64,000 nucleotides of DNA from Magnetococcales bacterium. GTDB lineage: Bacteria > Pseudomonadota > Magnetococcia > Magnetococcales > UBA8363. The notes under the pieces were generated by a model. It did not search any database. It was given only the letters and a program-made list of their open reading frames with translations, and had not been told where the DNA came from. The position numbers and the translations under genes were made by a program. The DNA lies in the NCBI GenBank assembly GCA_002753515.1, contig PEAK01000017.1, positions 1-64,000 of the forward strand. The letters run 5' to 3'. Shown piece by piece: positions 37,997 to 42,896 of the stretch. Every line of letters begins with the position of its first letter. Positions within the stretch are counted from its first letter, which is position 1.

Positions 37997-38395
37997 ATGA
38001 AAATTCCCGGATTGGCGATGGTAATACCTGGCATCATGTTTTCCAGCATTATTGATATTTCCAGTACGGACATCGCACCGGAACAAGGCAAGCAGGATGG
38101 ACAGGCTGCGACTGTGCATCATTGCGATGCCGTGGTACGTAACCCGGAAATCATGACCACATTACTTCTGCAAAATCGTCATCTTGATATTATGGATCTT
38201 CAGGGTCGCACAACGCTCATGTGGGCAGCCGAGAATGGTGAGACCGAACTCGTAAAAAAATTGCTGGCATCGGGGGCTGACGTCAACGCTTCGGACTGGT
38301 GGGGACGGACGGCTTTGAGCCTGGCGTTGGAAAAAGATTATCGCAAGATTATTGCCCTTTTGATTGAACATGGTGCCCATATCAGTGCTGGTTGA
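37997..38395 (+). CDS. Small ankyrin-repeat protein
   Basis: 132 residues. The last 70 residues form about two ankyrin repeats (GRTTLMWAAENGETELVKKL and GRTALSLALEKDYRKIIALL). The first 25 residues are hydrophobic (IPGLAMVIPGIMFSSIIDIS) and might be a signal or anchor. Ankyrin repeats mediate protein binding; the partner is unknown. AAGGAAATG gives the start. It stands alone in a region of accessory genes. Confidence 0.8.
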   Translation: MKIPGLAMVIPGIMFSSIIDISSTDIAPEQGKQDGQAATVHHCDAVVRNPEIMTTLLLQNRHLDIMDLQGRTTLMWAAENGETELVKKLLASGADVNASDWWGRTALSLALEKDYRKIIALLIEHGAHISAG

Positions 38396-39229: not shown

Positions 39230-41443
39230 TTGCCCATAGAAAATCAATTCGATGTTCCCTTCATTGCCCGAATGGCGTTGAAGGAGAAGCAGGTTCAACA
39301 GAACTACCGACCTATCATTGCCGTACATAAATGGTTTGCACGCCGTCCTGGGACCCTCTTTCGTGGCCTTCTGCTCAGTGAATTTGGTGAGGGACCGGTT
39401 GCCGATGCCTTCTTTCGTTCCCATACCTTTCCAGGCATCAAGGTGGCCGATCCGTTTATGGGTGGTGGAACACCCCTGTTGGAAGCCAATCGCATCGGCT
39501 GCGATGTTACCGGATTCGACATCAACCCCATGTCCGCTTGGATCGTGCATGAAGAGATTGAGCATCTCGATTTACCAGCCTACCATTCTACTGCCGAAGC
39601 CTTACTGTGCTTTTTGGAACAGAAGGTCGGCGGTCTGCAAACGACTTGTTGTACGCTTTGCGGCCACGCTTCAGCCCCTGCCAAAAGCTATCTGTGGGTC
39701 AAGACACTACCCTGTGAGGAATGTGGAAGGGATGTCAACCTTTTTCCTGGTTTCCTGGTAGCGAAGGATCGGCGTCACATAAAAAATGTTCTTCTTTGCC
39801 CGCAATGCGGAGAACTCTGCGAAGTTGACGATTCATCCGATCCGGGCACGTGCCGTGTTTGTCATGGTACTCTAGGCCTGGAAGGCGTAGCCAGGAAGGG
39901 GCATTGCAATTGTCATCATTGTGGACGGAGAAACACCTACCCCCGACCTGATGCAGGACCACCTGATCACCGGATGTTCGCCATTGAGTATCATTGTCAC
40001 CATTGCAAAGTGGGGCACAAAGGGCGGTTCTTTAAAAAGCCCGATCCAGGGGATCTGGAAGCGTATGCTTTGGCGGAACGTCAGTGGCAGGCGATGGAGG
40101 CCCGGTTTGTGCCTGTGGAAGACATCCCTTTGGGAGACGAGACGGGCCGGTTGCATCGGTGGGGTTATCGGCGCTACCGGGATATGTTCAATGCCCGGCA
40201 ATTGCTGGGTTTGGAATGGAGCGCCCGGTTTATTGAAAAGGTGGGTGACGCACGTATTCGGCGTGCTTTGGCTACAAATCTGTCGGATCTGCTGCGCTAC
40301 CAGAACATGCTTTGCCGTTATGATGTTATGGCGCTGAAGGCCTTGGACATCTTTTCCATTCATGGTTTCCCCGTGGGGTTGGTCCAGTGTGAATCCAACC
40401 TGCTTGGAATAGCGAATGGCCGGGGTGTCAACGTGGGCAGCGGTGGATGGCGGAACATCATCGACAAGTATTCTAAGGCCAAGGCGTATTGCGATCACCC
40501 ATTTGAAGTGGACCATCGCGGATCTCGTAAGGTCCAGATTCCCATTCATGGGGAGTGGATTGGCGAAGCCCGACTCAACGGCAAGGCGTTTTCTCCACGC
40601 CAAGTTCAGTTGCAGTGCCAAAGCGCCACAACTGCTGATCTGCCGGAAAACAGCCTGGATGCGGTTTTTACCGATCCCCCTTATTTCGGTAATGTGCAGT
40701 ACGGCGAATTGATGGATTTTTGTTTCGTCTGGTTGAAGCGTTTGGCCAGGGATGATTTGGCAAGGTGGGGTGGGGATACATCCAAGCATGCCGATGAGCT
40801 TACGGGCAATGTAACCCAGGAGCGAGGTCTTGAACATTTCACCACTGGGTTGTCCATGGTTTATTCCAGGATGGCCAAGGCGCTGAAACCCGGCGCTCCT
40901 CTAGCCTTCACCTATCATCATAACCGGCTGGAGGTCTATGGTGCGGTCGGCGTGGCTATCCTTGATGCTGGTTTGATCTGCTCGACTTCTATTCCCTGTC
41001 CTGCGGAAATGGGTGGCTCTATTCACATCCATGGAACAGGTTCATCCATCGTGGACACGGTCTTCGTTTGCCGTAAGCATGGCCATGTGGATGCCCGGCA
41101 ATTGTTCTACGATACCGAACAGTTGCTTGATATTGTTGACAGGGACCTCGAAGCTTTACGTCTGGGAGGTGTCCAGCCAACATTGGGCGATATTCGCTGT
41201 ATCCTGTTCGGTCATTTGACGCGCATGGGCGTTTGGAACCTGCGGAAAACGTGGGAGCCTGGCCTGACCGTCGAACAAAAGCTGCATAGATTTACTCAGG
41301 CACTTCAATGGCTCCCTGATTTTTCCAGAGTTCTTGACCGGGCTGGTAAGGAGCAAGATGATGATCGGCATCTCGGCGGTCTGTTTGCTGGTCGTCCTTC
41401 TCGTTCATCATCCCTGGAGGGCAATCATGCCGTTTCCTTTTGA
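39230..41443 (+). CDS. DNA methyltransferase with zinc ribbons (DUF1156-like)
   Basis: About 737 residues. FxGxG motif I occurs near the N-terminus (VADPFMGGGTPLLEA, about 72-86) and motif IV as TDPPYFGN near residue 480, the order of N6-adenine/N4-cytosine methylases. Between them lie several CxxC pairs (CTLCGH, CEECGRD, CPQCGE, CRVCHG, CHHCGR, CHHCKV, about 135-270), suggesting zinc ribbons. VHKWFARRPGTLFRGLLLSE near the start is typical of DUF1156 methylases. The TTG start at 39230 follows GGAAAGAGG by 8 bases; the open frame extends further into the previous gene. It overlaps the next nuclease gene by 17 bases, as modification and restriction genes often do. Confidence 0.8.
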   Translation: MPIENQFDVPFIARMALKEKQVQQNYRPIIAVHKWFARRPGTLFRGLLLSEFGEGPVADAFFRSHTFPGIKVADPFMGGGTPLLEANRIGCDVTGFDINPMSAWIVHEEIEHLDLPAYHSTAEALLCFLEQKVGGLQTTCCTLCGHASAPAKSYLWVKTLPCEECGRDVNLFPGFLVAKDRRHIKNVLLCPQCGELCEVDDSSDPGTCRVCHGTLGLEGVARKGHCNCHHCGRRNTYPRPDAGPPDHRMFAIEYHCHHCKVGHKGRFFKKPDPGDLEAYALAERQWQAMEARFVPVEDIPLGDETGRLHRWGYRRYRDMFNARQLLGLEWSARFIEKVGDARIRRALATNLSDLLRYQNMLCRYDVMALKALDIFSIHGFPVGLVQCESNLLGIANGRGVNVGSGGWRNIIDKYSKAKAYCDHPFEVDHRGSRKVQIPIHGEWIGEARLNGKAFSPRQVQLQCQSATTADLPENSLDAVFTDPPYFGNVQYGELMDFCFVWLKRLARDDLARWGGDTSKHADELTGNVTQERGLEHFTTGLSMVYSRMAKALKPGAPLAFTYHHNRLEVYGAVGVAILDAGLICSTSIPCPAEMGGSIHIHGTGSSIVDTVFVCRKHGHVDARQLFYDTEQLLDIVDRDLEALRLGGVQPTLGDIRCILFGHLTRMGVWNLRKTWEPGLTVEQKLHRFTQALQWLPDFSRVLDRAGKEQDDDRHLGGLFAGRPSRSSSLEGNHAVSF

Positions 41444-42479
41444 GATCCCTTTCGAGGAAGTCCGGGGAAATTTGGATCGTTATGTTGATGAAGTCTTCGG
41501 TTGCCTCCAGTCGGAATTTCTCGTATTGCCCAAAGGGCCAGGATTCGTTGAATACCCGCTTTTCGAGGAGGGATTTGAGGCACTGAAGAAGGCGACTGGG
41601 AATTTTCATGATTTTTCCCCCGAACGGGTTTATCATGTCGTTGTGACATACCCTATGGCTTTGATTCTTCTCCGCTGCATATTGGGTTTTACACCGCCGG
41701 AGTGGGCCTATGTGGCGACCCAAAGAACGGGGGTTGAAGTGACCCAGGGGGCTGTTCGTTCCTTGGATCGAAAGATCCGCATGAATCCTCGTGTTCCTCT
41801 TGGTGGGAAACGAGACGGACTGACCATGCAACGGGTGCAAGCCCTGGTTGAAACAGCCTGCGTCTTGTTGGTCGAAGGCGCACCATCGGTTCCAGACGAT
41901 AAGCTACACCGTCTGAACAAGGCCGATACCATGGCTGGCTTGGTAGGTCTGCGATCCATGGCTAATCTGGGTGTTCCCTATCCTGTTTTGCTTTATGAAC
42001 GATTTTTGGGACGTCCTTTCGCGGGACACCGGGACTCGGTGAGTGAATTGGTTGGTGATATGCTGGAAAACGCTATTGAGGAAGTTCTGCACCGAGCGGG
42101 AATCAGCTTCCGCAAGACCAAACGGGCACAACGTCTGCCAGGGTTTGATCAAGCGCCCGATTTTATTATACCCAATGAGTTCAACCCGAAGGTGATCATC
42201 GAAGCCAAACTGACGGAGGACGATGGCACGGCCCGTGACAAAGTGACTCGGGTGCAACATCTGAGTCAATTGAGTCTGGAAGGGCAGTCGTCGTATTCTC
42301 CGAAGTATGAGGTGATTGCCTGTATTGCTGGACGAGGATTCGGTGTACGGCGGGAAGATATGAAAAAGTTACTCTTGGCTACCCGTGGCAAGGTGTTCAC
42401 TCTGCAGAATATGAACCAACTGATCGATAAATCCTCGTTGAAATGTTTTCGTACTTTGAACTTGCCAGAATCCTTATAG
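41427..42479 (+). CDS. Putative PD-(D/E)XK restriction endonuclease
   Basis: 350 residues. Near residues 243-261, PDFIIP...VIIEAKL supplies the PD...E-x-K pattern of PD-(D/E)XK nucleases. The N-terminal 230 residues are helical and I do not recognise them. The ATG at 41427 has GGAGG six bases upstream and overlaps the methylase by 17 bases, so the two should be translated together. A type II-like restriction-modification pair is the simplest reading; the recognition sequence cannot be predicted. Confidence 0.65.
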   Translation: MPFPFEIPFEEVRGNLDRYVDEVFGCLQSEFLVLPKGPGFVEYPLFEEGFEALKKATGNFHDFSPERVYHVVVTYPMALILLRCILGFTPPEWAYVATQRTGVEVTQGAVRSLDRKIRMNPRVPLGGKRDGLTMQRVQALVETACVLLVEGAPSVPDDKLHRLNKADTMAGLVGLRSMANLGVPYPVLLYERFLGRPFAGHRDSVSELVGDMLENAIEEVLHRAGISFRKTKRAQRLPGFDQAPDFIIPNEFNPKVIIEAKLTEDDGTARDKVTRVQHLSQLSLEGQSSYSPKYEVIACIAGRGFGVRREDMKKLLLATRGKVFTLQNMNQLIDKSSLKCFRTLNLPESL

Positions 42480-42488
42480 GAGTATGAA

Positions 42489-42710
42489 TTGAAAATAGTT
42501 TCTATATTCAATAATAAGGGTGGCGTTGGAAAGACAACGCTGACTTTTCATTTGGCACATGCCTTGGCGGATATGGGGCACAAGACGCTGCTTATCGACC
42601 TGGATCTGCAGTGTAATTTAACTGTTCACGGTTTAGAATAGGAGGAGTTACATGATATATGTAAATCTGAGGATAAATTTAATGTTGTCTATAACTTCTG
42701 TGAGGGGGGT
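42489..42710 (+). pseudogene. ParA/MinD-like ATPase, broken
   Basis: Starting from TTG at 42489 (AGGAG just upstream), 50 residues include [20 protein letters not shown], the deviant Walker A motif of ParA ATPases, and [12 protein letters not shown]. An in-frame TAG at 42639 interrupts it. The frame then continues with EELHDICKSEDKF to about 42710, where similarity stops and the sequence becomes a minus-strand transglutaminase remnant. The gene lies directly behind the restriction-modification pair and is both interrupted and truncated. Confidence 0.75.
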
Positions 42711-42850
42711 GTTGTACTATTGCACAACATGTGTTGGCCGTTACCCTCTGTGACGAAGCGACCATTTGCGTGAAGAGGGGCTGGTTGCCAAGTGTCCAAG
42801 GAGTGCCCGCGATAGAAAAAAAACGAAGGGGTTCGGTTCGTTCTGGGTAG
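42689..42850 (-). pseudogene. Decayed copy of the 3' end of a DUF2126/transglutaminase gene
   Basis: The minus strand encodes RGHSLDTWQPAPLHANGRFV then TEGNGQHMLCN before a stop at 42689. The intact DUF2126 protein at 44104-47415 has EHGHTLGTWQTTPPPPASGRF then VPEGSGQLLLR in the same place. The DNA also matches around 44200-44310 with clear but incomplete identity, so this is an old or diverged duplicate. Confidence 0.6.
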
Positions 42851-42896
42851 TGATCGATTTTGGGAATAAGAGCGATATTTCCTTGAGAAATTGATG

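Follow-up and report, generated by a model that had tools for sequence, protein, structure and literature searches.

The window, that is the whole stretch of 64,000 nucleotides that was analysed, lies on a contig from a genome of 4.3 Mb and 97% completeness. On its forward strand lie two adjoining genes, one coding for a DNA methylase (M) and the other for a nuclease (R), whose coordinates and motifs are collected in Table 1. The TTG start of M aligns with the MSIE start of its relatives, indicating that the starts are homologous, and the start codon of R lies inside the end of M, the same nucleotides encoding both proteins. A copy of M and R with about 97% identity was found in a sister genome, a Magnetococcales MAG. 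The sequence-only reading of this region had described a methylase with motif I at its N-terminus, DPPY only near residue 480 and at least six CxxC pairs in between, overlapping by 17 bases a nuclease with a PD...ExK motif. All of these features were recovered, motif I as DPFMGGGT (M residues 74-81) and the remainder at the positions given in the table.

Table 1. Features of the methylase and nuclease genes, in window coordinates
Feature	Position	Strand	Remarks
M, Zn-ribbon DNA methyltransferase of the COG1743/DUF1156 type	39230..41443	+	737 aa, TTG start; 29 homologues
Motif I (SAM binding), DPFMGGGTP	39449..39475	+	M residues 74-82; DPFMGGG invariant in 29/29
Insert with six CxxC pairs	39650..40006	+	M residues 141-259; predicted to bind three zinc ions and to form part of the target-recognition insert
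Motif IV, DPPY	40673..40684	+	M residues 482-485; invariant in 29/29
R, PD-(D/E)XK nuclease	41427..42479	+	350 aa; N-terminal region helical and matching no known family
Dual-coding overlap, 17 nt	41427..41443	+	M ends ...AVSF*, R starts MPFPFE; 17 or 20 nt in 28/31 loci examined
R catalytic residues E214, PD244-245, ExK259-261	42066..42209	+	Invariant in 23 intact pairs and the Microbacterium homologue

The cysteine pairs of M (C141/144, 162/165, 190/193, 208/211, 228/231 and 256/259) are predicted to bind zinc, three ions in all. Eight of these cysteines, forming the four pairs 162/165, 190/193, 208/211 and 228/231, were invariant in the 29 homologues, and C141 was also present in every copy. 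The remaining C144, C256 and C259 were jointly present in 15 of the 29 copies and jointly absent in the other 14. It was considered that this might reflect repeated covariation, an idea that was rejected as the tree of M requires only one change, a single joint loss or gain. Since a haloarchaeal Hma-type methylase has all six pairs, the third zinc site is probably ancestral and would have been lost once.

Searches with M gave a match to the NCBIfam model NF042963 (DUF1156_antiphage; E 8e-28, far below its 1000-bit cut-off) and to the PADLOC models DUF1156_MTase, HmaB and PglXI, placing it among the PglXI/DUF1156/HmaB-type methylases at the family level, and the regions around motif I and DPPY matched DNA methylase families. 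Over residues 2-661 M is 30% identical to the haloarchaeal methylase, with the insert and cysteine pairs aligned; that protein matches HmaB and is encoded near a gene matching HmaC/DUF499. The AF2 model of M (pLDDT 65) showed weak Foldseek similarity to CcrM and other DNA methylases, and neither this model nor that of R, both only moderately confident, gave a match at E<=0.001. Elsewhere in the same genome a 990-aa open frame (G000:C104:944-1408) weakly matched M, with 26% identity over 141 aa, and is possibly a second COG1743-type methylase.

In a 2026 survey it was reported that the BREX-3 methylase contains, between core strands 2 and 3, a target-recognition insert of about 250 residues with a 4C zinc motif, followed at the C-terminus by a triad of HTH domains, and that BR methylases share this architecture, some with two 4C motifs (PMC12839542). 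Outside BREX, no protein homologous to this insert turned up in the survey (PMC12839542). A COG1743-DUF499-helicase system was also reported by Bell et al. in 2020 (PMC7641849). M has in common with the COG1743/DUF1156 methylases of these systems (the BREX type 3 PglXI/BrxXI, BR/DUF499 and Hma proteins) the N-terminal motif I, the large cysteine-zinc insert after the first core strands and a DPPY motif behind the insert, and its similarity to the Hma-type methylase is full-length. The sequence-only reading had regarded the pair with its zinc-ribbon methylase as unusual; its description of the architecture held, whereas the enzyme is not unique, since it is of the COG1743/DUF1156/BREX-3/Hma type. 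M does differ from these proteins in the six CxxC pairs of its insert, for which the survey gives mostly a single 4C motif and in some cases two (PMC12839542), and, at 737 aa, in lacking the C-terminal HTH triad (about 280-300 residues) of BREX-3 and BR methylases. It ends about 75 residues past the homologous region and has 737 aa, against 878 aa in the haloarchaeal methylase.

Given its 30% identity to the methylase of a haloarchaeal HmaC/DUF499 system, M might be a piece of a larger BREX-3/BR/Hma assembly of methylase, DUF499/HmaC ATPase and helicase-nuclease, in which R would be an accessory and the ATPase and helicase would be encoded elsewhere. We consider this very unlikely. The flanks of the pair vary from locus to locus, and in about 30 loci no recurrent ATPase/DUF499, helicase or PglZ partner was seen within about 3-9 kb, judging from the layout of open reading frames and the starts of their sequences. 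Instead of such partners there is a PD-(D/E)XK gene, which adjoins M always and overlaps it nearly always, and M lacks the C-terminal HTH extension of about 280 residues found in BREX-3 and BR methylases (PMC12839542). Plasmids of Acidiphilium, Tabrizicola and Rhodococcus were also found to carry COG1743-type methylases (L026:4129-7112, L028:1543-4493 and L029:4196-7049). These overlap an upstream ORF of 249-275 aa with the motif PDF...GYE[IV]KG, which had no usable Pfam match, and represent a second two-gene architecture with an apparently unrelated nuclease.

The nuclease R has the E...PD...ExK core of the PD-(D/E)XK superfamily, formed by E214, P244-D245 and the EAK at residues 259-261. R passed no Pfam, NCBIfam or PADLOC cut-off, its weak Pfam matches below cut-off being to TPD and PDDEXK_11, and in these three libraries neither R nor M matched an ATPase family. 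In line with the earlier statement that the first 230 residues of the nuclease are not recognised, no Pfam model matched the N-terminal region of about 200 residues, and about 145 residues of it, scanned alone against Pfam at E<=10, gave no match. The AF2 model of R (pLDDT 72) has a helical N-terminal half and an alpha/beta C-terminal half, and its weak Foldseek matches were to the folds of BstEII, EcoT38I and BsoBI, none of them under E 0.001. Sequence searches against solved structures with R and R profiles returned nothing meaningful. XamI, considered as a possible relative of R, was rejected because Pfam had no such match, and an HTH domain in the N-terminal region, a guess from Foldseek matches to POU domains and an HTH-like Microbacterium copy, received no support from Pfam.

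Remote relatives of R were found beside methylases of other kinds. On the Microbacterium plasmid pMspBDGP8A (L015:6964-8999) an R homologue, with 28% identity by tblastn and a profile probability of 99.7%, overlaps the gene of a 308-aa SPPY methylase. This methylase is an ordinary beta-class enzyme, unlike M, and the two genes are annotated as restriction-modification (a site-specific MTase and a hypothetical protein). As the R homologue adjoins this gene, the nuclease family of R also pairs with a beta-class methylase. More distant relatives at four loci (L094-L097) adjoin other methylases, either one or two per locus, and that of L094 is also next to an HNH gene. All three of the proteins scanned from these loci passed the Pfam DpnII cut-off and one of the three the RE_BanI cut-off, and their profile matched that of R with 97.2% probability over the catalytic region. 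Shared with the DpnII/MboI (PF04556) and BanI-type (PF24447) enzymes, which cut unmethylated DNA, are a [P/M/T]DF-I.P motif, an E-x-[K/N/S] strand and, further on, G.G[WF]. The N-terminal region of R is different from that of DpnII, and R has ExK in place of the ExN of the DpnII members compared. Neither the DpnII nor the RE_BanI model matched R or five of its homologues, and direct profile comparison of R with DpnII members gave a probability of 0.2%, which is not significant. For this reason we kept R out of the DpnII family and filed it as a putative PD-(D/E)XK nuclease with the mode of action of a type II endonuclease, its catalytic domain being linked to DpnII/BanI-type nucleases only via intermediates. 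R was not placed in a well-described family, the outcome that would have spoken against the sequence-only reading, as it had no direct match to a family model, and R may be regarded as a candidate new restriction endonuclease family. At one further locus (L113:1005-3451) the gene of a 480-aa methylase overlaps that of a protein of 334 aa, in which an R-like catalytic region was matched weakly.

When a genome collection was scanned with R, twelve loci were found, all with M directly upstream, in genomes labelled Magnetococcales, Nitrospira/Nitrospirales, Betaproteobacteria, Acidobacteria, Lentisphaerae, Syntrophomonadaceae, Chitinivibrionales and a delta proteobacterium. When about 1500 genomes were searched with profiles, matches came from 4 of 61 relatives, from 5 of 399 genomes of the same phylum (one of them weak) and from 7/300, 8/247, 10/246 and 6/237 genomes of four other groups, these last counts taking in fragments and distant domain-only matches. 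The pair is thus sporadic, occurring in about 1-4% of the genomes of each sampled group and in several bacterial phyla, and among seven other genomes of the genus one carries R. Three contigs of the viral collection IMG/VR carry the M and R pair, and the phage records gave no match to either protein. M was immediately 5' of R in every locus holding both genes. Among the 23 intact pairs identity ranged from 46 to 97% in M and from 42 to 97% in R, and the two were correlated (r=0.79; 0 of 2000 permutations). No catalytic motif residue varied among the 29 homologues of M or the 23 intact ones of R. Since the overlapping unit recurs in distantly related bacteria, chance pairing can be excluded. 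M and R form a conserved two-gene cassette, and its sporadic spread across phyla together with the IMG/VR contigs suggests that it is mobile. Near-identical cassettes were also present in two MAGs labelled delta proteobacterium and Betaproteobacteria (L012 and L013), either because the cassette was transferred recently or because of a binning error. Searches of the literature turned up no paper on this pair, and REBASE may already list such pairs as unnamed predictions.

A six-frame profile scan of the loci was used to score the decay of each gene. In six loci R was damaged and M intact: R had a stop at codon 13 in L004, had lost its C-terminus in L008, was frameshifted in L009 and L109, was cut at residue 195 in L093, and lacked residues 67-299 in L106. 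These account for six changes on the M tree. The reverse, an intact R with a frameshifted M, was seen only in L010, a MAG copy. The remaining decayed loci had damage to both genes (L011, L107, L110 and L111) or R fragments only (L112 and L114). Homologous transporter genes adjoin the cassette in two genomes, one with R intact (L104) and the other with R deleted (L106). Part of this argument is weakened by the chance that frameshifts in MAGs stem from faulty sequencing; less doubtful are the clean internal deletion of L106, on a large contig, the stop codon of L004 and the truncation of L093. If M protects against R, then R should be lost more often than M, as is seen here. It was also considered that R, whose N-terminal region has no family assignment, might be a modification-dependent (type IV-like) or abortive nuclease, with M marking DNA for R or controlling it. 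This is very unlikely in view of the six losses of R with M kept, against one in the other direction, and of the nearest recognised relatives of R, which are DpnII/BanI-type enzymes encoded beside methylases.

Downstream of R, as had been noted earlier, follows a broken ParA-like gene (42489-42641), which runs for 50 codons to a TAG, whereas the frame in the sister genome extends to 127 codons. It was rejected as a part of the system, being a remnant that, among the carriers examined, adjoins M and R in this genome and the sister genome alone and is absent beside carriers outside the genus. On the minus strand at 42671-42886 lies a remnant resembling the C-terminus of a neighbouring 1103-aa transglutaminase-like protein, and upstream of the cassette (37997-38392) a 132-aa ankyrin-repeat protein that matches PADLOC ankyrin models. 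No clean empty site could be shown within the genus, the flanking genes lying on different contigs in the relatives. These two remnants, and the decayed copies common in other loci, would fit a window copy that is itself a passive, inactive relic in a decaying region, with M at most an orphan regulatory methylase, yet this is the least likely of the alternatives, as both genes are open, their catalytic residues are intact and both are conserved in the sister genome.

The suggestion that this may be a poorly described type II-like system is the reading best supported by our results, and we consider it likely that M and R together make up a type II-like restriction-modification system that is compact and mobile. 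The reasons are the co-inheritance of the two genes, the kept overlap, the invariant motifs, the preferential decay of R, and the distant R homologue encoded with a beta-class methylase. As in known two-gene type II systems, one methylase and one nuclease are encoded by separate linked genes that are adjacent, overlapping and mobile, both with intact catalytic motifs, and it is R that is often lost; the differences are that the class of M is known from multi-gene defence and that the family of R is unnamed, and in the Microbacterium pair the methylase touching the R homologue is not M-like. Against a type II assignment stand the closest described relatives of M, the BREX-3, BR and Hma methylases, which belong to systems with effectors other than simple type II endonucleases, as well as the L010 copy and the moderate confidence of both AF2 models.

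In the type II-like system proposed here, M would be an N6-adenine DNA methyltransferase acting on a specific site of the host DNA, the DPPY motif and the closest families suggesting m6A as its product. Between the half that binds SAM (motif I) and the catalytic one (DPPY) lies the large zinc-ribbon insert, which most likely helps to read the target sequence. R, whose translation begins within the last codons of M, would act as a PD-(D/E)XK endonuclease, its helical N-terminal region probably recognising the site that M methylates. DpnII is known to cut unmethylated DNA (PMC4081073), and R would likewise cut DNA in which the site is unmethylated, with methylation by M protecting the host DNA. 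Site-specific cleavage, a shared recognition sequence and phage defence would then be the expected properties of the pair.

Thus, zinc-ribbon methylases of the BREX-3/BR/Hma kind are also found in a minimal cassette, as one of its two components. Tentatively, and with the odds somewhat against it, the cassette could be an evolutionary bridge between type II restriction-modification and BREX/Hma, the multi-gene systems having taken their methylase from it, or the reverse. R would offer a candidate restriction endonuclease family with a putative DNA-recognition part in its N-terminal region, and the cassette a small, directly testable system for the recognition target of the zinc insert.
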